Shown here: positions 33,816-51,910 of the stretch, one piece after another
How the letters are laid out: every line of letters starts with the position of its first letter
How positions within the stretch are numbered: position 1 is the first letter of the stretch
From: Bacteroidales bacterium
GTDB lineage: Bacteria > Bacteroidota > Bacteroidia > Bacteroidales > UBA932
NCBI GenBank assembly: GCA_017459075.1
Contig: JAFUDQ010000025.1
Coordinates: 1 to 64,000, forward strand
Length of the DNA: 64,000 nt
Direction of reading: 5' to 3'
Position numbers and translations under genes: made by a program
Notes under the pieces: model-generated
The model's input: the letters and a program-made list of their open reading frames with translations, nothing else
The model's database searches: none
What the model was told of the DNA's origin: nothing

Positions 33816-34624
33816 ATTATATCCTCCTTCTTGAAAACCGGACCATCTTTACAAACCCGTCTCGGGCCGCCGGTTGTCTGAATACTGCAACAGTAGCAGA
33901 ATCCTGCTCCGCAGCCCATCCTTTCCTCAAGGCTGGCCTCTCCCGGACCTTCGAGTGCAGAACAAACCGCCCGCATCATAACCATCGGCCCGCAGGTGTA
34001 AAAATAGTCCCAGGACGGCTGTAAGGCCGATATTGCATCGGTCACCAGTCCTTTAATGCCGGCGGAGCCGTCCATGGTAGCAATTGCAAAACCGTCGCAA
34101 AGAGACCGGAAATCCTCTTCCAAAACAATCTCGTCAGCCTTATTGAAGCCCAGTATCGCTGTTACCTTCTTACCTTGCGCCTTGAGCTTTTTGCAAAGCA
34201 GGAAGAGGGGAGCCGCGCCAAGGCCGCCGGCAACCAAGAGAGCCTCATTCTTGCAGGCATCGGCATCAAAACCCCGTCCGAGGCCCGTCAGAACGTCAAT
34301 TTCAGAACCAACCGGCATAGTTGACAAAGCCTTCGTCCCGGCACCCACCGTCTTATAGAACAGCGTAAGCTTTCCACCTTCAGCATCGCAAATCGAAATC
34401 GGCCTTCTTAAATAATACCCCGGAATCTCCAGATTCACAAACTCCCCGGTGGAGATTTCTCCACTCGCTCCGCTCGGTCGAAATGACAAAGGGCTATCGC
34501 TCGGTCGAAATGACAAAGGGCTATCGCTCGGTCGAAATGACAAAGGCGCACACTCCAACACTAACCTGTAAGTCTTGAATGCAACTACCTGATTCTCAAC
34601 TATTTTAAACTGCTGCTTAATCAT
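33809..34624 (-). CDS. pyrK: Dihydroorotate dehydrogenase electron-transfer subunit, with repeat insertion
   Basis: A 271-residue flavin and iron-sulfur protein. The FAD part is YYLRRPISICDAEGG, the NAD-binding part LLVAGGLGAAPLFLLCKKL, and the [2Fe-2S] ligands lie in MGCGAGFCYCC and RVCKDGPVF. Between the first strand (VLECAPL) and TGEFVNLEIPG is an extra segment of about 32 residues made of repeated LSFRPSDSP units. It comes from a DNA repeat at 34451-34545 and is in frame. The enzyme probably tolerates it as a surface loop. The gene overlaps carB by four bases. Confidence 0.88.
   Translation of the reverse strand: MIKQQFKIVENQVVAFKTYRLVLECAPLSFRPSDSPLSFRPSDSPLSFRPSGASGEISTGEFVNLEIPGYYLRRPISICDAEGGKLTLFYKTVGAGTKALSTMPVGSEIDVLTGLGRGFDADACKNEALLVAGGLGAAPLFLLCKKLKAQGKKVTAILGFNKADEIVLEEDFRSLCDGFAIATMDGSAGIKGLVTDAISALQPSWDYFYTCGPMVMMRAVCSALEGPGEASLEERMGCGAGFCYCCSIQTTGGPRRVCKDGPVFKKEDIIW
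34451..34545 (-). repeat. Tandem repeat inserted in pyrK
   Basis: Three copies of a 27-base unit built around GTCATTTCGACCGAGC, ending at GGAGAAATCTCC. The purD insertion shares the cores GTCATTTCGACCGA and GGAGAAATCTC but is read in another frame. Confidence 0.8.
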
Positions 34625-37600
34625 TTATACTCCTCATCAATAGTTGAAATACCAAGAGTAATCTCCTCCAACACATCAAGAAGAACCCGAACCGTCTCAA
34701 GCGCCGTAAAAATCGTCACATTATTCTCCACCGCCGTCCGCCTTATCTCATAACCATCCAAATGACTACTCTTCTGATTCAAGTCGATAGTATTGATAAC
34801 ATAAGAAACATGCCCCTTGCGAAGCGCCTGGCAAATCTCATCACTTCCCTCAGATAACTTCCTGAGACTCTTAGTCCTTATACCATTCTCCTTCAGGAAA
34901 GCCGCCGTACCCTTCGTGGCCTCAATATTAAAGCCCAGATTATAGAACCTCCTGATAAGCGGAAGAGCCTCTTGCTTATCCTTATTGGCAATAGTGCAAA
35001 GAATTGTACCATAAGGCTTTACATCCATACCAGAAGCCTGGAGAGACTTATATAAAGCCCTTGTAAGAGAATTATCGTAACCGATAGCCTCACCCGTAGA
35101 CTTCATCTCTGGAGAAAGGTAAGTATCGATACCCTTAATCTTACCGAAAGAGAAAGCCGGCGTCTTCACAAAATGCCGTTTGCGCTCAGGGAAATAAACC
35201 TCGTTTATTCCCTGCTCCTTAAGCGAATGCCCAAGCATAACACGCGTAGCAATCTTCGCCATCGGAATACCCGTAGACTTGGAAATAAACGGCACCGTAC
35301 GCGAAGAACGAGGATTAACCTCAATCACATAAACATCGTCATTGCTGTCAACGATAAACTGAATATTATAAAGGCCGATGATGCCGATTTCCTTACCCAG
35401 CTTAACCGTATCGTCAATAATCTCCTGCTTGACCTTCTGACTCAAACTAAATGAAGGATAGACACTTATACTGTCTCCAGAATGGATACCAGTACGCTCT
35501 ACATGCTCCATGATAGCGGGAATAAACACATCCTCACCGTCGCAGATGGCATCAACCTCAGTCTCCTTGCCCATAATGTACTTATCCACAAGAACAGGGG
35601 ACTTCTCATTGATTTCAACCGCATTGTGAAGATAATGCTTTAGAGTATCGTCATTACCCACAATCATCATCGCACGGCCGCCAAGAACGAAGCTCGGACG
35701 CACCAGCACAGGGTAACCAATATCGTGGGCGGCCTGAAGGCCCTCTTCCACGCTTGTAACTGCATGAGCCTTGGGCTGGCGGATGCCGGTGCGGCGCATA
35801 ATCTCCTCAAAGAGCTTGCGGTCCTCTGCGTTATCGATGGCCTGAAGGCCGGTACCGATAAGCGGAACTCCGAACTCCTCAAGAGGACCTGCCAGGTTGA
35901 TGGCAGTCTGTCCGCCAAGGGTGACAATCACGCCCTCAGGCTGCTCCAGACGAATCACATTCATAACATCCTCAGTCGTAAGCGGCTCAAAATAAAGCTT
36001 ATCGGAAATAGTATAGTCAGTGGAAACAGTCTCAGGGTTATTGTTAATGATAATTGCCTCATATCCGGCCTCGCGGATAGCCCATATAGCATGAACCGTA
36101 GAATAATCGAACTCCACACCCTGGCCTATGCGGATAGGGCCGGAACCAAGGACCAGAATCTTCTTGTTCACGCTCCTGCGGGACTCATTCTCCTGCTCAT
36201 AAGTAGAATAGAAGTAAGGAACATAAGTATCATGTTCACCTGCGCAGGAATCAATCATCTTGTAAACAGGGACGATGTTGTTGGCAAAGCGGAGGCGGAT
36301 GATATCGGCCTCTGAACGGCCCCAAAGCTGGCCGATGAATTTGTCTCCGAAGCCCATCCTTTTGGCTTCTGACAGCACTCCAAGGTCCCCCGGAGTGGCC
36401 TTCACAAGGCGCTCCATCCTTACAATATTGTAAATCTTCTCAAGGAAGAGCATGTCAATCTTGGTCCTGTCATAGATTCGGGACAGGTCAATCCTAAGGC
36501 GAAGCAGCTGGGCAATTGCATGGTAGCGGTCGTCCGTAGGCGTGCTGATGTAGTCAAGAAGCTGCTCCTGGGTCCAATCGTCAAATTTCTTCTTATGAAG
36601 GTGGCAGCATCCGCTTTCAAGTGAACGCATCGCCTTAAGAATACTTTCTTCAAGGGTGCGGCCGATGCTCATGACTTCACCGGTAGCCTTCATCTGTGTG
36701 CCAAGTTCATTTGACGCCTCGCTGAATTTATCAAAGGGGAAGCGGGCCACCTTGGTAACAACATAGTCTATTGCAGGCTCGGTGCATGCAGGGGAGCCGG
36801 CTATGATAATCTCATCCAGAGTAAGTCCTACGGCTATTTTTGCTGTTACGCGGGCAATAGGGAAGCCGCTGGCCTTTGATGCAAGGGCCGATGAACGTGA
36901 GACTCGGGGATTAACCTCAATTATGTAATATTTGAATGAGAGCGGGTCAAGGGCGAACTGGACGTTGCAACCTCCCTCAATGTGCAGTGCGCGGATAAGC
37001 TTGAGCGCACTGGAACGCAGCATTTCAAATTCTTTGTCCGTGAGGGTCTGGGCCGGAGCTACAACCATTGAATCACCGGTGTGGATGCCCACAGGGTCTA
37101 CATTCTCCATTGAGCAGATGGAAATAGCCGTGTCGTTATGGTCACGCATTACCTCAAACTCAATCTCCTTGTAGCCCTTGATGCTCTTCTCAACGAGAAC
37201 CTCATGAACAGGGGAGAGGAAGAGGGCGTTACGCATCATGTCGCGGAGTTCTTCTTCATTGTATGCGAAGCCGCCTCCTGTTCCTCCAAGGGTGAAAGCC
37301 GGACGAAGAATAACAGGATAGCCAATTTTTGCTGCCGCAGCAACCCCCTCTTCTACGCTGTAGCATATTTCAGACGGAATCACCGGTTCATCTATGGAAA
37401 TGCAAAGTTCCTTGAAGAGCTCACGGTCTTCTGCCTTCTCAATATCGGTAAAGTCTGTTCCAAGAATCTCTACGCCGCATTCTTCCAGAATACCTTTCTT
37501 AGCCAGCTGAACGGCCAGGTTAAGGCCTGTCTGGCCTCCAAGGCCGGGAACAAGGGCGTCAGGACGCTCATATCTTATTATTTTGGCGATGTAATCCAGC

Positions 37601-37809
37601 TTCAGGGGTTCCATATACACCTTGTCGGCAATATGGGTATCGGTCATTATGGTGGCAGGGTTTGAGTTCACCAGGATAACCTCATATCCTTCTTCTTTCA
37701 GCGCCAGGCAGGCCTGCGTGCCGGCATAGTCGAACTCTGCTGCCTGACCAATAACGATAGGGCCGGAGCCAATTACCATTACTTTCTTGATATCAGTTCT
37801 TCTAGGCAT
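34621..37809 (-). CDS. carB: Carbamoyl-phosphate synthase large subunit
   Basis: A 1062-residue subunit with the usual duplicated ATP-grasp halves. The carboxyphosphate half starts VMVIGSGPIVIGQAAEFDYAG and the carbamoyl half repeats it as ILVLGSGPIRIGQGVEFDYS (near 555). Glycine loops (GGTGGGFAYNEEE) and VNPRVSRSS/VNPRSSRTV signatures are intact, and an allosteric domain fills about 930-1062. It can bind ammonia and makes carbamoyl phosphate for pyrimidines and arginine. It overlaps carA by eight bases and pyrK by four. Nothing suggests loss of synthetase activity, in contrast to the partner CarA. Confidence 0.94.
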   Translation of the reverse strand: MPRRTDIKKVMVIGSGPIVIGQAAEFDYAGTQACLALKEEGYEVILVNSNPATIMTDTHIADKVYMEPLKLDYIAKIIRYERPDALVPGLGGQTGLNLAVQLAKKGILEECGVEILGTDFTDIEKAEDRELFKELCISIDEPVIPSEICYSVEEGVAAAAKIGYPVILRPAFTLGGTGGGFAYNEEELRDMMRNALFLSPVHEVLVEKSIKGYKEIEFEVMRDHNDTAISICSMENVDPVGIHTGDSMVVAPAQTLTDKEFEMLRSSALKLIRALHIEGGCNVQFALDPLSFKYYIIEVNPRVSRSSALASKASGFPIARVTAKIAVGLTLDEIIIAGSPACTEPAIDYVVTKVARFPFDKFSEASNELGTQMKATGEVMSIGRTLEESILKAMRSLESGCCHLHKKKFDDWTQEQLLDYISTPTDDRYHAIAQLLRLRIDLSRIYDRTKIDMLFLEKIYNIVRMERLVKATPGDLGVLSEAKRMGFGDKFIGQLWGRSEADIIRLRFANNIVPVYKMIDSCAGEHDTYVPYFYSTYEQENESRRSVNKKILVLGSGPIRIGQGVEFDYSTVHAIWAIREAGYEAIIINNNPETVSTDYTISDKLYFEPLTTEDVMNVIRLEQPEGVIVTLGGQTAINLAGPLEEFGVPLIGTGLQAIDNAEDRKLFEEIMRRTGIRQPKAHAVTSVEEGLQAAHDIGYPVLVRPSFVLGGRAMMIVGNDDTLKHYLHNAVEINEKSPVLVDKYIMGKETEVDAICDGEDVFIPAIMEHVERTGIHSGDSISVYPSFSLSQKVKQEIIDDTVKLGKEIGIIGLYNIQFIVDSNDDVYVIEVNPRSSRTVPFISKSTGIPMAKIATRVMLGHSLKEQGINEVYFPERKRHFVKTPAFSFGKIKGIDTYLSPEMKSTGEAIGYDNSLTRALYKSLQASGMDVKPYGTILCTIANKDKQEALPLIRRFYNLGFNIEATKGTAAFLKENGIRTKSLRKLSEGSDEICQALRKGHVSYVINTIDLNQKSSHLDGYEIRRTAVENNVTIFTALETVRVLLDVLEEITLGISTIDEEYK

Positions 37810-38884
37810 TGCTGTTGTCCTCCATCATTTTAATGAACCTGTCAAAAAGTGAGATATTGTCATAAGGGCCGGGGCCGGATTCCGGATGGAATTGTACGCC
37901 CAGCACTTTATCCTTAACATTTTCAAAACCAAGTACATAGCCTTCTGGAACGGCGGTGTGTGTAGGGCTCAGAGTTGTGCCTTCCACTGTTTTGAAGCAG
38001 TGGCTTTGTCCCAGAACGGCAATGTTTATCCTGCCGGAAGCCAATTCGCGGACAGGATGGTCTCCGTGCACGCCGCAGCCCATATCAGAAAGCTTCGCCC
38101 CATATTCAAGGCCGATGGCTTCCATTCCGAGCCCGAGTCCCAGAACGGGCACGCGGCCTTTGATTTCTGCAAAGAGGGCGGGGATTTCCGGTACCTCCGT
38201 TGCTGCTCCGGGGCCGTCAGAGAGCAGGACTCCATCCGGGCTGTAGGCCATGATGTCTTTTGCGGGTGTATTGAACGGGACGATGGTTACGTTGCAGCCC
38301 CTGTTGTTAAGTGCGTGAATTACGCTGTGTTTGATGCCGCAGTCTGCTGCTACGACATGGAACCGATGGTTCGAGGTGCGTGTGACCCATCTTTTTTTGC
38401 AGCTTACGCTGCGGACGAGGTCTTTGGGACGGGATGTGGATGCAATCAGTGCCAGGGCTGCTTCTTTTGGCATTGTGGCGTCTACGATGGCTCCCATCGG
38501 CTTATTGCCTTTTCTTATGATTTTGGTCAGAAGGCGGGTGTCTATGCCGCTGAGACAGGGGATCCCGTGCTCTTCGAGTTCTTCTTCAAGGGTTTTGGCT
38601 GCGCGGAAGTTGCTTGGTGTGTCGCAGCATTCCCTTACTATGAGGCCTCCGATTGCAGGGGTACGGGATTCGTTGTCTTCGTTTGTTATTCCGTAATTTC
38701 CTATGAGTGGGTAGGTCATTACTACGAATTTGCCTGCGTAGCATGGGTCGGAGATTATTTCCTGATATCCTACTACGGAGGTGTTGAAAACTACTTCGCA
38801 GACTCTGGGTTCGCCGGAGCCGAATCCAACTCCGGTAAACTCTTCACCGCTTTCAAGTATTAATTTCTTTTCTGGCCGTTTCAT
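37802..38884 (-). CDS. carA: Carbamoyl-phosphate synthase small subunit lacking the catalytic cysteine
   Basis: A 360-residue CarA with a normal N-terminal domain (GEEFTGVGFGS, SVVGYQEIISDPCYAG) and a class I glutamine amidotransferase domain. The nucleophile elbow, normally GICLGHQ, reads GLGLGME. Codons at 38126-38140 confirm Gly251 where E. coli has Cys269, and Gln273 is replaced by Glu. The NHGF motif is SHCF. The later catalytic pair is kept in QFHPESGPGP. The glutaminase should therefore be dead, while the protein may still dock on CarB. A functional subunit using glutamine is unlikely; a structural partner for ammonia-driven synthesis is more plausible. Confidence 0.92.
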   Translation of the reverse strand: MKRPEKKLILESGEEFTGVGFGSGEPRVCEVVFNTSVVGYQEIISDPCYAGKFVVMTYPLIGNYGITNEDNESRTPAIGGLIVRECCDTPSNFRAAKTLEEELEEHGIPCLSGIDTRLLTKIIRKGNKPMGAIVDATMPKEAALALIASTSRPKDLVRSVSCKKRWVTRTSNHRFHVVAADCGIKHSVIHALNNRGCNVTIVPFNTPAKDIMAYSPDGVLLSDGPGAATEVPEIPALFAEIKGRVPVLGLGLGMEAIGLEYGAKLSDMGCGVHGDHPVRELASGRINIAVLGQSHCFKTVEGTTLSPTHTAVPEGYVLGFENVKDKVLGVQFHPESGPGPYDNISLFDRFIKMMEDNSNA

Positions 38885-41457: not shown

Positions 41458-41490
41458 GCCCACCGCGCCTAATTGCGCAGGTGGGCTTTT
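41458..41490 (+). terminator. Terminator-like hairpin between purE and purL
   Basis: GCCCACC (41458-41464) pairs with GGTGGGC (41480-41486), then TTTT. It lies six bases after the purE stop and eight bases before the purL ATG, so partial termination or attenuation is possible. Confidence 0.55.
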
Positions 41491-41498
41491 CAATTGAT

Positions 41499-44400
41499 AT
41501 GAGCAGCAAACGATTGTTCGTAGAAAAAAAGGAAAACTTCCGGGTGGAAGCAGCCAGCCTTCTTGCCGAGCTTGATGAGAATCTTTCACTTGGCCTGAAG
41601 TCCCTGCGCCTACTGAATGTTTATGACCTTTTCGGTTTTTCCGATGAGCTTGTGGAAGAATGCCGCTACCGTGTGTTCGGTGAGCCGGTTACCGATACTG
41701 TTTCTGACAGCATCGACTTAACCGGTAAAAAATATATCGCCGTGGAATATATCCCCGGTCAGTTTGACCAGAGGGCGTCTTCTGCGGTAGACTGCGTGCA
41801 TCTTATAGAGCCTGAGGCCGATGTCACCATAAAAAGTTCCCGTCTCCTTGTTTTCGGGAACGAGGTTTCTGATGCCGATATCGCCAGGATAAAGCATTAT
41901 TTCATAAACCCCGTCGAATGCAGGGAGAAAGACCTTTCTGTCCTTAGCCCCACCGGCATAGCCGAAGTCAAAGCCCTTGAAGACCTGAGCGGATTTACTT
42001 CCATGCAGGAAGCTGATTTAGGGGCTTTCTGCAAGAGTCACGGCCTTGCAATGAACGAGGATGACCTTCGTGAGGTTGTACGGTATTTCAGGGAAGAGGG
42101 CAGGACTCCCACAGAAACAGAGCTAAGGATTCTGGATACATATTGGAGCGATCACTGCCGCCATACCACATTTACCTCTGAATTGGAGGAAATAACTGTA
42201 GACCAGTCATTTATAAAGGAAGATATAGAGTCTTCACTGGACCTTCTAAGGGAAATGCGCTCTGAGCTCGGTCGCAGCGGAAAGCCGCTTTGTCTTATGG
42301 AAATAGCTACCATCGGCGCAAGATGGCTTAAGGCGAAGGGTAAACTTAATGATCTTGAGCAAAGCGAAGAAAACAATGCTTGCAGCATCTATGTCGATGT
42401 TGACGTTGACGGAGAGATTCAGAAATGGCTGCTTCAGTTCAAGAATGAGACGCATAACCATCCGACGGAGATTGAACCCTTCGGCGGAGCGGCAACCTGT
42501 CTTGGCGGAGCCATAAGGGACCCTCTCTCAGGCCGTGCCTATGTTTACCAGGCCATGCGTGTAACGGGAGCAGGAGACATTCTTGCGCAGGTCGCAGACA
42601 CTATTCCCGGAAAGCTTCCTCAAAGAACTATAAGCCGCAAGGCCGCCGCAGGTTATTCCAGCTACGGCAACCAGATTGGCCTTGCCACAACTCATGTAAG
42701 AGAAATATATTCAGCTGGTTACACGGCTAAGAGAATGGAAATCGGAGCCGTCGTGGGTGCCGTCAAGGCCTCGAATGTCCGCCGCGAAAGCCCTGCCCCC
42801 GGAGACGTCATCCTTATGCTTGGAGGAAGAACCGGCCGTGACGGAATAGGTGGAGCCACAGGCTCTTCCAAGGGTCATACTGAAGCCTCGCTTGAGACTT
42901 GCGGAAGCGAGGTGCAGAAAGGAAATGCTCCGGAGGAGCGCCAGCTTCAGAGGCTTTTCCGCCGCCCGGAAGTAACCCGTCTTATAAAGAAATCAAATGA
43001 CTTCGGTGCCGGAGGCGTAAGTGTAGCCATCGGCGAGTTGGCAGATGGCCTGGATATTTACCTGGACCGTGTTCCTGTCAAATATTCCGGCCTGAACGCA
43101 ACTGAGCTTGCAATCAGCGAGTCACAGGAAAGAATGGCCGTGGTCATAGAAGCATCGGATGAAGAGCTCTTCAAGGCCCTTTGCTCTGCCGATAATATTG
43201 AAGTAACCCATGTCGCCGATGTCACAGCTACCGGCCGCATGCGCATGTTCATGGGTGAGAAGACGGTTTGCGACCTCTCACGTGCCTTCATAGACAGCGC
43301 CGGAGCAAAGCATTTTGCCAAGGCAAGCATAGGTGCTGTAAAAGAAATAAATCCATTTGTACGCAAGCCGGAAGGCCTTGACCTTCAGGAGAAAATGGAG
43401 GTTGTAATGTCATCTTCCAACGTGGCTTCACAAAAGGGGCTTGTAGAGATGTTTGACAGCACCATCGGCCGTTCAACCGTTCTGATGCCTTACGGCGGAA
43501 GAAGGCAGGTAACGGAGACTCAGGTATCTGTACAGAAGCTGCCTGTTAACGGAGTTACCAATACAGCCAGTGTGATGGCCTTCGGCTATAATCCTAATAT
43601 CGCACTCTGGAGCCCTTATCATTCAGCTGCTTACGCAGTTGTTGAAGCCTGTGCCAAGGTCGTTTCCTGTGGTGGAGACTGGTCTGGGATGCGCTTCTCT
43701 TACCAGGAATATTTTGAGAGGATGACCTCTGAACCTCATACCTGGGGCAAACCTCTTGCCGCCCTTCTAGGAGCCCTTAAAATGCAGGCTGCCCTTGGTC
43801 TTCCTTCAATCGGTGGAAAAGACTCAATGAGCGGCACTTTTGAGCATATACATGTGCCCCCGACACTCGTGGCCTTTGGTATAACAACTGTTGATGCCCG
43901 CCAGGTTATTTCTCCTGAATTCAAGAAAGCCGGTAACCGTATTTACCTGCTTAAACATACTCCAAAGGCTGATTATATGCCTGATACAGAGCTTCTTAAG
44001 TCTAATTGGAACTGGCTTTGCGGCCAAATCAGGAAGGGGAGTGCAGTGTCTGCCTGGTCTCTTTCTTATGGCGGAGTTGCAGAGGCTCTTGTTAAGATGG
44101 CCATGGGTAACGGCCTTGGCTTTAATGTGAACATCGCAGAAGACGAACTTTTCAACCTTGGGTACGGTTCGATAGTATTTGAGTCCCCTGAAGAGTTGTC
44201 TGTTGAAGGCCTTGTAAAAATAGGCTCCGTAACTTGTCATGGAGCGGCTATTAATGGCGAAGTTCTTGATATGAAAGCCCTTGAGGCTGCTTATGAAGGC
44301 AGATATTCTAAGCTTTATCCTGTAAAGGTCCCGCCCCAGTTTAATGAGCTTGCTCCGGAAATTTCCGGCAAAGCCGGTAATGACTCAGTCATGGCCGGCA

Positions 44401-45206
44401 ACGATCGGCCATCTATTCTGGTGTATCCCGGTGATGCCGTTCAGACACCAATCGTTTGCCTGCCCGTGTTCCCCGGAAGCAACTGCGACTATGATACGGC
44501 TAAAGCCTTCCGTAAAGCCGGAGCTGAGGTTAAGCCATTCATTTTCAGGAATATAACTCCTGCCGCCACCTTGGAATCAATTGACGCTCTTGCAGAAGCC
44601 ATTAATGAAGCTCATATTCTGGCTTTCTGCGGCGGCTTCTCTTCAGGCGACGAGCCGGACGGCAGCGGAAAATTCATTGCCAATGTTATCGGAAACGCCA
44701 AGATAAGTGCTGCGATTTCTGCTTTACAGGCACGCGGCGGCCTTATTCTTGGAATTTGCAACGGCTTCCAGGCCCTTGTTAAGAGCGGCCTCCTGCCTTA
44801 TGGAAAATGCGGGGTTACACCTGCTTCTCCAACCCTTTTCAGGAACGATATCAACCGTCATATTTCACTTATAGCAGAAACAGAGGTAACTTCTGTTAAT
44901 TCCCCATGGCTCAGCAGTTTCAAACTTGGAGAAAAGCATCAGATTGCCTTCAGCCACGGAGAGGGAAAATTCGTTGTTGCACCTGAGCTTGCCCGCCAGC
45001 TGTTTGAAAACGGACAGGTGGCCTTCCGCTATACAGACAATCCCAACGGTTCCTACTATGATATAGAGGGCATCCTCAGCCCGGACGGACACATCCTTGG
45101 AAAGATGGGACATAGCGAGCGCTATGAAGATAATCTTTTCAAAAACATCTCCGGCAACTGCTCCCAGCCCATTTTTGATAATGCAGTCATATATTTCAGA
45201 AAATAA
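41499..45206 (+). CDS. purL: Phosphoribosylformylglycinamidine synthase (single large chain)
   Basis: 1235 residues from ATG 41499 (MSSKRLFVEKK). It has an N-terminal PurS-like part, paired synthetase domains (SDHCRHTTF, FKNETHNHPTEIEPFGGAAT, GGKDSMSG) and a C-terminal glutamine amidotransferase. Unlike CarA and PurF, the amidotransferase keeps its nucleophile: Cys1087 in ILGICNGFQALV, with HSER near the end supplying His and Glu. It converts FGAR and glutamine to FGAM. The GGFSSGDEPDGSGKF form matches PurL of Clostridia and Bacteroidetes. It reads into purC2 after 12 bases. Confidence 0.94.
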   Translation: MSSKRLFVEKKENFRVEAASLLAELDENLSLGLKSLRLLNVYDLFGFSDELVEECRYRVFGEPVTDTVSDSIDLTGKKYIAVEYIPGQFDQRASSAVDCVHLIEPEADVTIKSSRLLVFGNEVSDADIARIKHYFINPVECREKDLSVLSPTGIAEVKALEDLSGFTSMQEADLGAFCKSHGLAMNEDDLREVVRYFREEGRTPTETELRILDTYWSDHCRHTTFTSELEEITVDQSFIKEDIESSLDLLREMRSELGRSGKPLCLMEIATIGARWLKAKGKLNDLEQSEENNACSIYVDVDVDGEIQKWLLQFKNETHNHPTEIEPFGGAATCLGGAIRDPLSGRAYVYQAMRVTGAGDILAQVADTIPGKLPQRTISRKAAAGYSSYGNQIGLATTHVREIYSAGYTAKRMEIGAVVGAVKASNVRRESPAPGDVILMLGGRTGRDGIGGATGSSKGHTEASLETCGSEVQKGNAPEERQLQRLFRRPEVTRLIKKSNDFGAGGVSVAIGELADGLDIYLDRVPVKYSGLNATELAISESQERMAVVIEASDEELFKALCSADNIEVTHVADVTATGRMRMFMGEKTVCDLSRAFIDSAGAKHFAKASIGAVKEINPFVRKPEGLDLQEKMEVVMSSSNVASQKGLVEMFDSTIGRSTVLMPYGGRRQVTETQVSVQKLPVNGVTNTASVMAFGYNPNIALWSPYHSAAYAVVEACAKVVSCGGDWSGMRFSYQEYFERMTSEPHTWGKPLAALLGALKMQAALGLPSIGGKDSMSGTFEHIHVPPTLVAFGITTVDARQVISPEFKKAGNRIYLLKHTPKADYMPDTELLKSNWNWLCGQIRKGSAVSAWSLSYGGVAEALVKMAMGNGLGFNVNIAEDELFNLGYGSIVFESPEELSVEGLVKIGSVTCHGAAINGEVLDMKALEAAYEGRYSKLYPVKVPPQFNELAPEISGKAGNDSVMAGNDRPSILVYPGDAVQTPIVCLPVFPGSNCDYDTAKAFRKAGAEVKPFIFRNITPAATLESIDALAEAINEAHILAFCGGFSSGDEPDGSGKFIANVIGNAKISAAISALQARGGLILGICNGFQALVKSGLLPYGKCGVTPASPTLFRNDINRHISLIAETEVTSVNSPWLSSFKLGEKHQIAFSHGEGKFVVAPELARQLFENGQVAFRYTDNPNGSYYDIEGILSPDGHILGKMGHSERYEDNLFKNISGNCSQPIFDNAVIYFRK

Positions 45207-45218
45207 CGGTATAACAAT

Positions 45219-45941
45219 ATGACAAAGGGTGAAAAAATATTCGACGGAAACGAAAAACAGGTTTTCAATACCGACGATCCTGATAAGGTTATTTTCCGAT
45301 ACAAGGATGTAACCGTAGCCTTCAACAATATAAAACGGGCACGTTTTGTAGGGAAGGGGGCTTTGGACAACCATATCTCCGCAATTCTGCTGGACTACCT
45401 TAACAAAAACGGTGTCAGCACCCATTTCGTGGAAATCTTCGGAGAGAGGGAACAACTTTGCAGAAAGATTGAGATAATCCCTCTTAACGTAATAGTACAC
45501 AACAGGATAGCCGGTACACTTGCACAGCGGCTTGGCCTTGAAGACGGATATCGCCATAACAATACCATCATTGAACTCAGGGTGAACAGCGATGAACTTT
45601 CAGACCCTGTAATCAACGAAGACATAGCCGTAGCAATGGGCCTTTCCACATATGATGAGTTGGAATATATCTATGGCCAGGCCCGAAAAGCCAATGATCT
45701 TCTTACAGCCTATCTGGCAAAAGCCGGCATAGAGCTCATAGATATGAAGCTGGAATTCGGCAGGGCATCGGACAACGGGGAAATCATAATTTCTGATGAG
45801 ATAAGCCCGGATACCAGTCGCATGTGGGACATTGAAACAGGGGAGAGGCTTGACAAAGACCGCTTCCGTTACGACCTTAGCGACGTTGTGGCTTCTTACA
45901 GGACAGTTTTGAACAGGCTTAACAATATTAAGGAAGCATAA
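45219..45941 (+). CDS. purC: SAICAR synthetase, second copy
   Basis: A 240-residue protein closer to the common PurC pattern: RNDSAFNG-like YKDVTVAFNN, CRKIEIIPLNVIVHNRIAGT, DELSDPVINED, IDMKLEFG and DEISPDTSRMWD with LDKDRFRYDL. The usual GKAK at the start reads GNEK, so the first Lys is changed. It lies between purL and purF, three bases before purF. With purC1 it gives the cluster two unlike enzymes for one step. Division of labour or decay of one copy is possible. Confidence 0.88.
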   Translation: MTKGEKIFDGNEKQVFNTDDPDKVIFRYKDVTVAFNNIKRARFVGKGALDNHISAILLDYLNKNGVSTHFVEIFGEREQLCRKIEIIPLNVIVHNRIAGTLAQRLGLEDGYRHNNTIIELRVNSDELSDPVINEDIAVAMGLSTYDELEYIYGQARKANDLLTAYLAKAGIELIDMKLEFGRASDNGEIIISDEISPDTSRMWDIETGERLDKDRFRYDLSDVVASYRTVLNRLNNIKEA

Positions 45942-45944
45942 GTT

Positions 45945-47306
45945 ATGGGACTTCTTGGTGTTTACGGCGTTCCGGACGCATCGACCTACATCTATTACGG
46001 ACTTCATAATCTTCAGCACAGGGGGCAGGAAGGCGGTGGAATCGCCACCTTCGACCACAATGGCGAGTCTTACAGATATCGCGGCCTCGGCCTTCTGAAT
46101 GAGATTTTCAATAACGGGCAGATTGGTAAGCTTAAGGGCAGCATGGGCATTGGTTCCGTAAAGTATTCCAATGTTTCAAAATCCGGACTGGACAATGTGG
46201 ACCCTCTGTTTTTCCGTCACAAGTCCGGAGACTTTGCCATTGCCGGAGAAGGCAATATCATAAATTCACGCCAGATTGCGGACTATCTTGAAAGGAACGG
46301 AATCATCTTCCAGACAGATACTGACAGCGAGCTGCTCGCTCACCTTGTAAAGAAGACCGGCAAGGTAGACAGGATTCAGATGCTTATCAAGGCCCTGAAT
46401 ATGATGGAAGGCGGTTTTACCTTCGTTCTTATGACCAAGAACCGTATATATGCCTGCCGTGACAAATATGGTATCAAGCCTTTGTGCCTTGGCCGGCTGG
46501 GCGATGGTTACGTGGTCAGCAGCGAATCCTGTGCTTTTGAAATCATGGGAGCGGAGTTCATTCGCGACGTGCAGCCTGGAGAAATAGTTTCATTGGACGA
46601 AAAAGGCATCCGCAGCAACTTGTATTCGCGATTCAATCGTCACAGGATGTGTGCGATGGAATATATTTATTTCGCCCGTCCGGACAGCGATATTGACGGT
46701 TGCAACGTGCATGCCTACCGAATGGAGGCAGGCCGCCGCCTGTTCCGTGAATGCCCGGTAGAGGCCGATATCGTTGTAGGTGTGCCGGAGAGCAGCCTCA
46801 GTGCCGCCATGGGTTACAGCGCAGAGAGCGGAATCCCTTATGAAATGGGCCTTGTAAAGCATAAATACGTGGGAAGAACCTTTATCCAGCCTGTTCAGTC
46901 AATGAGGGAGCTGGGTGTTAAGATGAAGTTGTCGCCGGTGCGCAGCATCGTCAAAGGCAAGAGAATAGTGCTTGTGGACGATTCAATCGTCCGTGGAACC
47001 ACTTCCCTCAAGATTGTGAAACTGCTTCGCGATGCCGGTGCAACAGAGGTTCACGTCCGTATTGCGAGCCCGATGATGAAGTACACCTGCCATTATGGCG
47101 TTGATACTTCCACTCCGGAGGAACTCCTTTGCAGCAACCGTACGCTTGAAGAGGCCTGCGCCGCCATCGGGGCTGATTCGCTTGGCTACCTGAGCCCTGA
47201 ATCTACCAGAGATTCTTGTTTTGGCTGTGCAGACCCTTGCCAGGCATGTTTTACAGGGGAATATCCAACCCTTCTTTATGAAAATGAAATAGAAACCAAC
47301 GATTGA
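45945..47306 (+). CDS. purF: Amidophosphoribosyltransferase lacking the N-terminal nucleophile cysteine
   Basis: A 453-residue PurF. The start is fixed by an in-frame TAA one codon upstream. The protein begins [13 protein letters not shown], so Met occupies the place of the catalytic Cys1 of CGIVGI-type enzymes and there is no Cys to expose. Other glutamine-site residues are changed as well: the Arg of HVRYxT is Lys73, its Thr is Asn76, and AHNGN is AGEGN, replacing the oxyanion Asn by Glu. The phosphoribosyltransferase half is normal ([16 protein letters not shown]). It should make phosphoribosylamine from PRPP and ammonia, not from glutamine. Confidence 0.92.
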
Positions 47307-47307
47307 T

Positions 47308-48333
47308 ATGGCTAAGACTTACGAAAATGCAGGCGTTAACCTGGAGGCTGGTTACGAGGTTGTACGCAGAATCAAACAGCATGTTGCGTCTACTTCCAGG
47401 CTTGGAAGCATGGGAAACATAGGCTCTTTTGGCGGGATGTTTGATCTTTCCGCCCTGAATGTCAGGGAGCCGGTGCTTGTGAGTGGTACCGATGGCGTCG
47501 GTACAAAGCTTAAGATTGCTTTTGCGATGGATAAACATGATACCATCGGCATTGATGCTGTGGCGATGTGTGTGAATGATGTGCTTGCCCAGGGTGCTGA
47601 GCCGCTGATTTTCTTGGATTATGTCGCCCTTGGTCACAATGTTCCGGCAAAGGTGGAGGCTATCGTGGCCGGCGTTGCAGAGGGCTGTCGCCAGGCCGGA
47701 TGTGCCCTTGTGGGCGGCGAGACTGCTGAGATGCCTGGTATGTATGCCGATGGTGAATATGATATCGCTGGTTACACTACCGGTTTGGTTGAGAAGTCCA
47801 AACTGATTGACGGAAGCAAAGTTAAGGTGGGCGATGTTCTTGTTGGCGTGGCTTCCAGCGGAGTGCATTCAAACGGCTTCAGCCTTGTCCGCAAAATTGT
47901 TGCCGATGCCGGTCTTTCATATTCCGATGTTATTCCTGAGTTTGGCGGGCGTACCCTTGGTGAGGTGCTTCTTACTCCTACCAAGATTTATGTTAAGCAG
48001 ATGCTTTCTGTGATTCGTGAATGTGATGTTCATGGTATCTGCCATATTACCGGCGGTGGTTTTGATGAGAATATTCCGCGTGTTCTCCAGCCGGGCCAGG
48101 GCCTTGAAATTACTGAGGGCAGCTGGGAGATTTTGCCTGTGTTCAGGATGCTTGAGAAGTGGGGCGGGGTGCCGCACCGCGAGATGTTCAATATCTTCAA
48201 TATGGGTATTGGTATGATTGCGGTTGTTGATGCCGCTGATGCTCCAAGGGCTATTTCTATCCTTGAGGCTGCCGGTGAGCGTGCTTCCGTTATTGGCAAA
48301 GTTACTGATAAAGAGGGTGTTTTAATTAAATAA
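47308..48333 (+). CDS. purM: Phosphoribosylformylglycinamidine cyclo-ligase
   Basis: A 341-residue AIR synthetase with the family segments [46 protein letters not shown] and [12 protein letters not shown]. It closes the imidazole ring. It begins one base after purF. A palindromic repeat element lies between it and purN. Confidence 0.94.
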
Positions 48334-48348
48334 CGATGTTTAATATTT

Positions 48349-48439
48349 ATTCCAGAACCGTCTTGCACGCAAGACCCCTCCCATCGCAAGCGATGGGCCC
48401 CTCCCTCTTACATTGCCGAGGGTGGCATGGGTTCTGGAA
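48349..48439. repeat. Palindromic intergenic element between purM and purN
   Basis: Outer arms ATTCCAGAACC (48349-48359) and GGTTCTGGAA (48430-48439). Inside are CCCATCGCAAGCGATGGG and a 39-base block (48393-48431) that recurs inverted at 51941-51979 with one mismatch. Confidence 0.75.
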
Positions 48440-48474
48440 CAAACACTAAACATCTTATCAATAACATGCAGTTT

Positions 48475-49035
48475 ATGAAACAGTTAGCGGTATTTGCAAG
48501 TGGGACGGGGACGAACTTTGAGGCCATAGCCAAGGCGTGTGCTGAAGGTGTACTGGAGGCGAGGGTGGCCGTTATGGTTTGCGACAAACCGGGGGCTGCC
48601 GTAATTGAGAAGGCGCAGCGGTATGGTGTAAAGACTTTTGTGTTCAATCCTAAGGAGTATTCCGGAAAGGCAGAGTATGAGGCAGAGATAGTTAAAGTCC
48701 TTGATTCTGAGAAGATTGACCTTGTATGCCTTGCCGGATATATGAGGATTGTGGGTGATGTGCTGCTTGATGCTTACGAAGGCAAAATTATCAATATACA
48801 TCCGTCTTTGCTGCCATCGTTCAAAGGCGCCCATGCAGTAGAAGATGCCGTCGCCTATGGCGTCAAGGTATATGGAATCACCATTCACTGGGTCAATTCA
48901 GAACTGGACGGTGGCAAAATCATCGCACAGGAAGCCTTCCCCTACGAAGGTGACGATCCGGCAGAAGTGCATCGCCTCGGACAGAAAATCGAACATCGGC
49001 TTTATATAGAAACAATCAAAAAACTTATAAAATAA
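48475..49035 (+). CDS. purN: Phosphoribosylglycinamide formyltransferase
   Basis: 186 residues from ATG 48475 (MKQLAVFASGTGTNFEAI). The frame is open upstream but lies in the repeat element, and ATG 48466 is the only serious alternative. Catalytic residues appear in IINIHPSLLPSFKGAHAVEDA and the Asp of SELDGGKIIAQ. It transfers formate from 10-formyl-THF to GAR. It is two bases from purH. Confidence 0.92.
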   Translation: MKQLAVFASGTGTNFEAIAKACAEGVLEARVAVMVCDKPGAAVIEKAQRYGVKTFVFNPKEYSGKAEYEAEIVKVLDSEKIDLVCLAGYMRIVGDVLLDAYEGKIINIHPSLLPSFKGAHAVEDAVAYGVKVYGITIHWVNSELDGGKIIAQEAFPYEGDDPAEVHRLGQKIEHRLYIETIKKLIK

Positions 49036-49037
49036 TC

Positions 49038-50567
49038 ATGAGAGCATTAGTCAGCGTAAGTGACAAAACCGGTCTTGTAGAGTTTGTTCAGGGACTCGTA
49101 GACCTTGGATGGGAAATCATTGCTACAGGTGGAACACAGAAACTGCTTGAAAGCAAAGGAGTTAAAACCATCGGCATAAGTGAAGTTACCGGATTTCCGG
49201 AGATTTGCGACGGCCGCGTAAAGACCTTGCATCCCAAGGTGCACGGCGGTATCCTTGCCCGCAGGGATGTTCCCGCCCACATGGAGACCCTCAAAGAGAA
49301 CGGCATCCAGACTATTGAATTGGTTTGCGTGAACCTCTATCCTTTCCGTCAGACTATCGCAAAGGAAGGTGTTACCCTGGAGGATGCGATTGAGAATATC
49401 GACATCGGCGGTCCTTCAATGGTGCGCAGCGCTGCAAAGAACTGGAAGGATGTTACCATTGTTTGCGATCCTTCTGACTATTCCGCTGTGCTTGAGGAAC
49501 TTAAGGCTAATGGCAAGACTTCTGACGAGACTCGCCTGAAGCTCTCTGCCAAGGCTTATACCCATACAGCAGAGTACGATGCCTGCATTGCTACTTACAT
49601 GCGTGCCCAGGCCGGTCTTCCGGAGAAGATCTTCCTTGAGTATGATATCAAGCAGGGTCTCCGTTACGGAGAGAATCCTCACCAGAGTGCGAAGTTCTAT
49701 GCTGCTCAGGAGCCCGCTTCTTATTCTCTTGCCTTTGCCAAGCAGATTCAGGGTAAAGAGTTGTCTTACAATAATATACAGGATGCCAATGCGGCTCTTA
49801 ACGTGCTTCGAGACTTCAAGGAGCCTTTCTGTGTTGCCCTTAAGCATATGAATCCTTGCGGGGCTGCTGTCGGCAATACTATTGAAGAGGCTTGGCAGGC
49901 TGCTTACGAGGCAGACAAGGTCAGCATTTATGGTGGTATTGTTGGTGTGAACCGAGAGCTTACTGCAGAGGTTGCCCGTGGTATGAAGCCTATTTTCCTT
50001 GAAATTGTCATAGCTCCTTCTTATACTCCCGAGGCTCTTGAGATTCTCTCTAGCAAGAAAAATCTTCGCGTTATGCAGGTTGATATGACTCCTTCCGATG
50101 CTCCTATCGCCCAGTATATCAGTGTTAACGGTGGTCTTCTTTCACAGCAGCTTGATACTCAGGTGGAGGAGGTTGTTCCGGGTATGTGTGTTACTGAAAT
50201 TAAGCCTACGGCTGCCCAGCTGGCTGATGCCAACTTTGGCTGGAAGATTGTTAAGCACGTGAAATCCAATGCGATAGCTGTTGTCCGTGATAATCATACC
50301 ATTGGTATTGGTGCCGGTCAGACCAACCGTGTCGGTTCTGCTCTCATCGCCCTTGAAGAGGCTAAGAATGCTGGTTTTACTTCCGGTTTGGTTCTGGCTT
50401 CCGATGGCTTCCTGCCTTTTGATGATACTGTTGCCCTTGCTGCCAAGTATGGTGTTACTACCATTGTTCAGCCTGGCGGTAGCATAAGGGATGCTGATGC
50501 TATTGTCAAGGCCGATGAACTTGGCATCACAATGCTCTTTACCGGAGTTCGTCATTTTAAACATTAG
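49038..50567 (+). CDS. purH: Bifunctional AICAR transformylase / IMP cyclohydrolase
   Basis: 509 residues. The N-terminal cyclohydrolase domain (about 1-190) has ALVSVSDKTGLVEF, GRVKTLHPKVHGG and NLYPFRQT. The transformylase domain has RYGENPHQSAKFY, the catalytic Lys-His pair in ALKHMNPCGAAVG, and the C-terminal DGFLPFDDTV. It performs the last two steps to IMP. Confidence 0.94.
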   Translation: MRALVSVSDKTGLVEFVQGLVDLGWEIIATGGTQKLLESKGVKTIGISEVTGFPEICDGRVKTLHPKVHGGILARRDVPAHMETLKENGIQTIELVCVNLYPFRQTIAKEGVTLEDAIENIDIGGPSMVRSAAKNWKDVTIVCDPSDYSAVLEELKANGKTSDETRLKLSAKAYTHTAEYDACIATYMRAQAGLPEKIFLEYDIKQGLRYGENPHQSAKFYAAQEPASYSLAFAKQIQGKELSYNNIQDANAALNVLRDFKEPFCVALKHMNPCGAAVGNTIEEAWQAAYEADKVSIYGGIVGVNRELTAEVARGMKPIFLEIVIAPSYTPEALEILSSKKNLRVMQVDMTPSDAPIAQYISVNGGLLSQQLDTQVEEVVPGMCVTEIKPTAAQLADANFGWKIVKHVKSNAIAVVRDNHTIGIGAGQTNRVGSALIALEEAKNAGFTSGLVLASDGFLPFDDTVALAAKYGVTTIVQPGGSIRDADAIVKADELGITMLFTGVRHFKH

Positions 50568-50602
50568 AATATCGAATGCCCTATATTGTAAAACATATTA
50601 TT

Positions 50603-51910
50603 ATGTTAAAAAATGTATTAGTAGTTGGTGGAGGTGGAAGGGAGCATGCGATTGTGGATGCGCTTAGCCGGTCAAAGAAGGTTGGCCGTATATATTGTGC
50701 TCCTGGGAATGCGGGGATTGGTGAACAGGCTTTCAATGTTCCGATAAAGGACACCGATGTTAACGGCCTGCTGGAATTCGCATATTCCCATAAGGTAGAC
50801 CTTACGGTAGTTGGCCCGGAGGCCGCGCTTTCGGCCGGCATAGTGGATGCCTTCCGTGCGCACGGATTGGCTATTTTCGGCCATACCGCCGCTGCTACGG
50901 CCATAGAAAGCTCTAAAGAGTTTGCTAAAAAGCTTATGGCCAAATACGGTATTCCAACGGCCTCCTACAACGCCTTTTCCGAATATGAGGAAGCCCTGGA
51001 CTATGTCTCCGGCCGTCCTTTCCCTGCCGTACTTAAATACGACGGACTGGCCGCCGGCAAAGGCGTAGTTATTGCCGCTAATCTGGAAGAAGCCGATGCC
51101 GCCCTTCGCAGCATGCTGCTGGACAAAACGTTCGGACAGGGCAGGGTAGTAGTGGAAGACTTCCTCCAGGGGCCTGAATTCTCCTTCCTATGCTTTGTTA
51201 ACGGTGCCGATGTTTACCCGATGCCCCTCTCGCAGGACCACAAACGCGCCTTCGACGGCGACAAGGGCCCCAATACCGGAGGCATGGGCGCCTATACCGG
51301 CCTGCCATTCATTACAGGGGAAGACAGGGAGTTTGCCCTTGAGAATATCATGAAAAAAGCCGCTGCGGCTATGGTCAGCGAAGGTTTACCCCTTTCCGGA
51401 GTACTTTACGGAGGCCTCATGAAAACCCCTGACGGCATAAAAGTCATTGAATTCAACGCCCGCTTCGGAGACCCGGAGACAGAAGTCGTTCTGCCTCTTC
51501 TTGAAAGCGACATTTACGACATCTTCTACGGCATTGCAACCGGCTCCGCCCTTGACACCCCCAAGTGGTCTTCTGACGTAACCTTGGGTGTTGTACTCGC
51601 ATCAAAGGGCTATCCCGGCGCCTACCAGAAGGGCTTCAAAATCCGCGGCCTTGACAACATCAACTGCCAAGTCTACCACATGGGCACCGCCATTTCAACC
51701 GAACATCCTGTCATTTCGACCGAACATCCTGTCATTTCGACCGAAGCGGAGAAATCTCAATCCATCGTCACCAACGGCGGCCGAGTCCTGATGCTCGTCG
51801 CCCGTGGTACGGATTTAGCAGCAGCCCGTAACACAGTTTACAGCGAAATCGCAAAAATAGACTGCGACAACCTATTTTACAGAAACGATATAGCACATTA
51901 CGCTTTATAA
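50603..51910 (+). CDS. purD: Phosphoribosylamine-glycine ligase, with repeat insertion
   Basis: 435 residues from ATG 50603 (MLKNVLVVGGGGREHA); nine upstream codons are not part of the family. ATP-grasp features include KYDGLAAGKGVVIA and EFNARFGDPETEVVLPLL. Near residue 363 a run of about 24 extra residues of repeated VISTEHP units, ending EAEKSQS, is inserted before VTNGGRVL by a DNA repeat in frame. It uses the phosphoribosylamine made by PurF. Confidence 0.92.
   Translation: MLKNVLVVGGGGREHAIVDALSRSKKVGRIYCAPGNAGIGEQAFNVPIKDTDVNGLLEFAYSHKVDLTVVGPEAALSAGIVDAFRAHGLAIFGHTAAATAIESSKEFAKKLMAKYGIPTASYNAFSEYEEALDYVSGRPFPAVLKYDGLAAGKGVVIAANLEEADAALRSMLLDKTFGQGRVVVEDFLQGPEFSFLCFVNGADVYPMPLSQDHKRAFDGDKGPNTGGMGAYTGLPFITGEDREFALENIMKKAAAAMVSEGLPLSGVLYGGLMKTPDGIKVIEFNARFGDPETEVVLPLLESDIYDIFYGIATGSALDTPKWSSDVTLGVVLASKGYPGAYQKGFKIRGLDNINCQVYHMGTAISTEHPVISTEHPVISTEAEKSQSIVTNGGRVLMLVARGTDLAAARNTVYSEIAKIDCDNLFYRNDIAHYAL
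51690..51760 (+). repeat. Tandem repeat inserted in purD
   Basis: Three 21-base units around CATTTCGACCGAACATCCTG, the last continuing into AGCGGAGAAATCTC. Confidence 0.8.

Follow-up and report, generated by a model that had tools for sequence, protein, structure and literature searches.

A PurF without its catalytic cysteine in a Bacteroidales purine operon, a probable ammonia-dependent enzyme

Glutamine is the textbook nitrogen donor of the first step of purine biosynthesis, and the PurF that uses it does so through an N-terminal nucleophile, Cys1. The window analyzed here, 64,000 nucleotides of contig JAFUDQ010000025.1 from a Bacteroidales bacterium (assembly GCA_017459075.1, lineage UBA932), carries a purF gene (45945..47306, + strand) whose 453 amino acid product lacks this cysteine. 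Is the protein still an enzyme, and if so, where does its nitrogen come from?

The protein as a whole belongs to the PurF family (TIGR01134, 454.6 bits; cut-off 350), with a glutaminase-like domain at residues ~1-225 and a phosphoribosyltransferase domain at residues ~232-445. Its N-terminus is MGLLGVYG. Upstream of the ATG the frame reads ...IKEA-stop-V-M, the stop being the TAA of purC itself (45939-45941) and a single GTT codon separating it from the purF start. With the purC stop two codons 5' of the ATG, neither an in-frame propeptide nor a cysteine can be encoded. Aligned with 37 Cys-bearing PurF proteins from the genus, the protein has its Met1 on the Cys1 column; Arg73 is replaced by Lys and Thr76 by Asn (VKYSN at 46158..46172, + strand; canonical VRYST), and the canonical AHNGN has become AGEGN (46242..46256, + strand), with Gly for His and Glu for the oxyanion Asn (Asn101). 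Arg26, Tyr74, Gly102 and Asp127 are retained. Residue positions follow what we take to be the E. coli numbering, as in the preliminary description of this DNA. The Thr76 to Asn change is also found in 7 of the 37 Cys-bearing sequences of the genus and so is by itself no marker of glutaminase loss. The PRPP-binding motif DDSIVRGTT (46977..47003, + strand) is intact and the loop residues are kept. Cysteines at positions 236, 382, 432 and 435, presumably the ligands of a [4Fe-4S] cluster of the B. subtilis type, occur in 72 of 72 rows, that is, in all PurF of the set. The preliminary description had reported a stop one codon before the ATG, Met in the place of Cys1, the changes at Arg73, Thr76 and the oxyanion Asn, and an intact PRPP half; all of these were recovered.

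Four classes of PurF were distinguished by searching 101 genomes of the genus and then reading the sequences. Class A has the cysteine (37 sequences). Eight of the 37, termed A2, keep it at 48-52% identity to the window's PurF and have no pur genes alongside in the fetched stretch; one of them (L058) groups apart from the other seven in the tree. Class B is Cys-less and comprises 24 sequences in the genus, including that of the window. Class D proteins (~580-660 amino acids) have the cysteine in the four read initially and in 11 more. Class C proteins (~470-520 amino acids, starting with MGGFFG or similar) lack the nucleophile in nine of nine read. They occur both inside and outside the genus (L062, L063, L068, L184-L189), and the sole class-C protein scanned scored 199 bits against the PurF cut-off of 350. 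No class-C row was found beside class B in the 24 class-B genomes of the genus search or in the 46 of a second search.

Class B was originally chosen by a profile match starting at position 2 or later, so the N-terminus partly defines the class, and independent support for it as a real group comes from its clade in the tree of the other domain. It is also found in g4 and g16, two more genera of this family, in which all proteins read (G127, G335, G180, G278, G361, G211 and G326) are Cys-less. Altogether 64 class-B genomes were read, the 24 and 40 more, and the cysteine is missing from every one. Asn101 has given way to Glu or Asp in every one of the 50 loci of a later reading, as in each of the 23 class-B rows used for the tree. 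In these 23 rows Asn101 is never kept, Arg73 is kept in 6 and Asp127 in 21, and Arg26, Gly27, Gln28, Tyr74 and Gly102 are invariant. No PRPP-site residue varies within the tree set; in the outlying G211 and G326 the Ile is Leu or Met. The preliminary description had asked whether the loss is clade-wide and had argued that it is no sequencing error; the 64 genomes and the single clade described below show it to be clade-wide and bear out that argument. A sequencing error or a wrongly chosen start codon is ruled out by the purC stop two codons upstream together with the class-wide loss; three archaeal PurF proteins, according to passages of PMC3261824, appeared to be Cys-less merely because of wrong start sites.

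A class-B query run against public genomes gave 80 loci; being its best matches, they are enriched for class B. They comprise 50 B, 11 of a second Cys-less type (B'), 18 canonical and one intermediate (L174). The cysteine is missing from 61 of the 80 (the 50 B and 11 B'). B' proteins start with MSVLGVYG or MSVLAVYN, and have Leu for Arg73 but keep the oxyanion Asn. These proteins and L174 come from metagenome-assembled genomes labelled Alistipes or Rikenellaceae. L174 (Rikenellaceae) keeps Cys1 but has Leu for Arg73 and the motif ANNGS, and may possibly represent a transitional state. Titles of the 61 Cys-less loci name a ruminant host for 29 and a horse for 3, and give codes only for the rest; these named loci overlap with our genome set, and the two sets of counts are not additive. 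A search at the phylum level found a PurF match in 291 of 392 genomes. Among the matches listed, all begin at profile position 1 like canonical PurF; class B would score lower.

A tree built from the phosphoribosyltransferase half groups all 23 class-B rows in one clade among the canonical sequences with support of 100/100, although the bootstrap had not fully settled. The branch that sets B and B' together apart from the rest is supported at just 24/84, which bears on whether the cysteine was lost once or twice, and L174 joins the canonical sequences apart from B' (91/69). Median dN/dS in class B is 0.20 for the glutaminase half and 0.06 for the other half (111 non-independent pairs), whereas in canonical class A the two values are 0.125 and 0.122 (19 non-independent pairs). 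Protein distances of the glutaminase half relative to those of the other half give slopes of 2.00 for B, 1.37 for B', 1.07 for A and 1.43 for A2; since A2 keeps its cysteine, a raised slope alone is no proof of loss. The class-B gene is under purifying selection, and its glutaminase half is relaxed but still constrained, as would be the case for a scaffold. A pseudogene is ruled out by these dN/dS values and by the intact operon.

The operon of the window has the order purL-purC-purF-purM-purN-purH-purD with purF as third gene, all on the + strand, and the successive gaps are 12, 3, 1, 93, 2 and 8 bases. purL (41481..45206) is of the large type and its C-terminal class-I glutaminase keeps the cysteine (GICNGFQ). 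purC (45219..45941) scores 175.4 bits with TIGR00081, slightly below the cut-off of 189.9, and has the same place in relatives. There follow purM (47308..48333; TIGR00878, 450.5 bits), purN (48427..49035; TIGR00639, 204 bits), purH (49038..50567; TIGR00355, 675.4 bits) and purD (50576..51910; TIGR00877, 461.3 bits), which encodes the consumer of phosphoribosylamine. All 24 of the class-B genes first fetched lie in a purL-C-F-M-(N)-H operon, and purL or purM adjoins 24 of the 29 class-A genes other than A2. Of 71 genomes tested, 66 have purD, among them 42 of 42 with class B, and the five that lack it are those without any PurF match. Loss of PurF goes with loss of the pathway, and genomes with class B as sole PurF retain it. 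The five genomes with neither PurF nor PurD match (G019, G054, G057, G070 and G076; members of the genus, 90-96% complete) are possibly those of purine auxotrophs.

The genome of the window (2.32 Mb in 53 contigs, 98.0% complete, 8.2% contamination) has no PurF-type match other than the purF described here and no further GATase_6 match; the second, Cys-containing PurF that the preliminary description had named as the thing to look for was not found in it at this completeness and contamination. Among 41 good class-B genomes (at least 90% complete, at most 5% contaminated), all Cys-less on reading, 16 metagenome-assembled genomes show no other PurF; G388, whose class-B gene is only partial and lies at the end of a contig, was kept out of the 41. 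Five of these 16 carry a GlmS-like match. The remaining 25 have a second, Cys-bearing type of PurF, which is class D in 10 (one of them with A2 too) and A or A2 in 15 (in pieces only in G022). Each of the 11 B' genomes, the completeness of which is not given, has one PurF.

Of the 18 genomes with class B alone, 17 lack glutamate synthase and the 18th has a fragment of 82 positions at a contig end; the enzyme is present in 10 of 10 genomes with B and D and in 6 of 14 with B and A or A2 (1/18 versus 16/24; Fisher p = 8e-5, uncorrected for kinship). In nine of the ten B and D genomes it lies on the same contig as D and less than 11 kb away, and in several (G370, G387, G401, G374) there are GlmS-like and AsnB-like matches near D. 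Such closeness reflects the linkage of one gene island and provides no independent evidence: D shares an island with glutamate synthase and further glutamine amidotransferases, and the set occurs as a unit or not at all. In the window's genome we found no GlmS (best true match 16 bits), no glutamate-synthase glutaminase, no AsnA and, from the PurF and GATase_6 searches, no AsnB-like match. AsnA was considered as an ammonia-using stand-in for AsnB and was rejected; it is found in 12 of the 18 B-alone genomes and is missing from that of the window. With neither GlmS nor AsnA matched there, no source of glucosamine 6-phosphate or asparagine is apparent.

A second glutaminase without its cysteine is encoded upstream of the purine operon and divergently from it. 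carA (37802..38884, - strand), the small subunit gene of carbamoyl phosphate synthase, reads GLGLGME where Cys-bearing relatives have GICMGNQ or GICLGHL. The large subunit gene carB (34621..37809, - strand) encodes 1062 amino acids (TIGR01369, 1443.6 bits). The glutaminases of CarA and PurF have unrelated folds. carA was present in 13 of 33 stretches fetched 5' of the relatives' purF, and this neighboring CarA is Cys-less in 11 of the 13; the two that keep the cysteine (G390 and G398) also have A2 and glutamate synthase. Among named class-B loci with the CarA motif covered, which overlap the 13, the cysteine is lost in 10 and kept in 3. Cys-less CarA also occurs alongside a second PurF (G003, G350, G374, G073, G290 and G408). 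A CarA located elsewhere could be read in 20 of another 25 stretches. In 18 it has the cysteine, among them the B-alone genomes G095, G382 and G413, for which it is a second CarA; the exceptions are G127 and, in a nearer type, G180. Because PurL keeps its cysteine and some relatives have a Cys-bearing CarA, glutamine use appears to be reduced, not abolished.

From these sequence features, we consider class-B PurF to be probably a maintained, ammonia-dependent PRPP aminotransferase. The start codon occupies the former place of Cys1, so that neither propeptide nor nucleophile is left. Arg73 is likewise altered, and the oxyanion Asn has become Glu or Asp; glutamine could hardly be attacked or held, and we infer that glutaminase activity has been lost. 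The phosphoribosyltransferase half, the PRPP loop and the four cluster cysteines are intact, and the enzyme would most likely convert PRPP and free NH3 to phosphoribosylamine, to be used by the PurD of the same operon. The dead glutaminase domain may be retained as a structural, perhaps regulatory, scaffold, and the extra losses beyond Cys1 make reversion unlikely. An E. coli PurF lacking Cys1 no longer uses glutamine but still uses ammonia (passages of PMC3261824, citing Mei and Zalkin 1989), as the preliminary description had stated, and class B can be regarded, by analogy, as the natural counterpart of that protein. Several points tell against this reading: the coexistence of a Cys-bearing PurF in 25 of 41 good genomes, the retention of Arg73 in 6 and of Asp127 in 21 of 23 rows, the raised slope of Cys-bearing A2, and the retained cysteine of PurL and of the second CarA in three B-alone relatives. 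The absence of another PurF, moreover, is seen in metagenome-assembled genomes, that of the window having 8% contamination.

Ammonia might instead be delivered by a partner. As in two-part amidotransferases, class B could be the phosphoribosyltransferase half of a complex in which a separate protein hydrolyzes glutamine and passes on the ammonia. The invariance of Arg26, Gly27, Gln28, Tyr74 and Gly102, which we take to have a role in inter-domain contact, would fit such an arrangement, and the Cys-bearing A, A2 or D of many class-B genomes could form mixed oligomers with it. We regard this as unlikely, as 16 of the 41 good genomes have no other PurF-type protein, the window's genome has no other match of the GATase_6 fold (the one fold searched), its purL-to-purD stretch holds no extra gene, and a partner would leave the losses of Arg73 and the oxyanion Asn unexplained. 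A canonical PurF that is present but missed, in a genome that is incomplete or mis-binned, is very unlikely: although the assembly is in 53 contigs with 98% completeness and 8% contamination, and 25 of 41 good relatives own a second PurF, the absence is repeated in 16 good genomes and in the 11 B' genomes with one PurF each (completeness not given), and it would not account for why the glutaminase half has eroded. It is also improbable that class B is a pseudoenzyme or regulator, with phosphoribosylamine arising elsewhere, for example from ribose 5-phosphate and ammonia. Salmonella mutants do form phosphoribosylamine independently of PurF, but passages of the same source state that such routes had never met the purine requirement (PMC3485032), and the PRPP site is invariant in the tree set, in a domain with a dN/dS of 0.06.

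Ammonia dependence of class B, if true, would make an in vivo ammonia-driven first purine step directly testable with a natural, ammonia-only PurF. It might also connect the loss of glutamine use with ammonia-rich guts, a tie that we infer for class B. Automatic annotation, in which such genes pass the TIGR01134 cut-off, would then mislabel them as ordinary amidotransferases, very likely wrongly. More tentatively, and with a likelihood that we put a little short of even, a gut Bacteroidales lineage may have shifted the entry reactions of the purine and the pyrimidine pathway, through PurF and the neighboring CarA, from glutamine to ammonia. More widely, Bacteroidales may pair an ammonia-using PurF (B or Cys-less C, never seen together in the genomes examined) with a glutamine-using one (A, A2 or D), the glutamine set having been lost in ammonia-rich lineages.

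Among solved structures, the window's PurF best matches the B. subtilis-type enzyme (EC 2.4.2.14; PDB 1ao0 and 1gph, which we take to be PurF of B. subtilis), with 506 bits over residues 2-448. It resembles that type in its PRPP motif, the four cysteines at the cluster positions and its purine operon, but differs in having neither propeptide nor Cys1 and in the altered Arg73, Thr76 and oxyanion Asn; unlike the B. subtilis type, it is not expected from its sequence to use glutamine. A Cys-less PurF of bacteria was not found described in the titles and abstract openings listed by searches of an open-licence library. Cys-less PurF as such is already known from archaea: passages of Brown et al. 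2011 (PMC3261824) describe PurF' of Crenarchaeota, a PurF homologue without the N-terminal cysteine encoded near purine genes, and put forward its ammonia dependence as a hypothesis. As far as that description allows them to be likened, the window's PurF and PurF' share the absence of Cys1. Each crenarchaeon, however, is there said to have one PurF' and one Cys-bearing PurF, whereas the window's genome has no second PurF match. Class B is thus distinct from PurF' as described: it is bacterial, takes the purF position of the operon and in many cases is the sole PurF found. More distant parallels exist in other enzymes. Vertebrate carbamoyl phosphate synthetase I has lost its glutaminase cysteine (Ser in human CPS1), keeps the domain and uses free ammonia, according to passages of PMC4655335 and PMC7657897, but it is another enzyme with another fold. 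NAD synthetases include ammonia and glutamine users in one family, with evidence for ammonia as the physiological donor; as passages of PMC3376133 have it, the ammonia users are without a glutaminase domain, whereas class-B PurF keeps what is probably a dead one.
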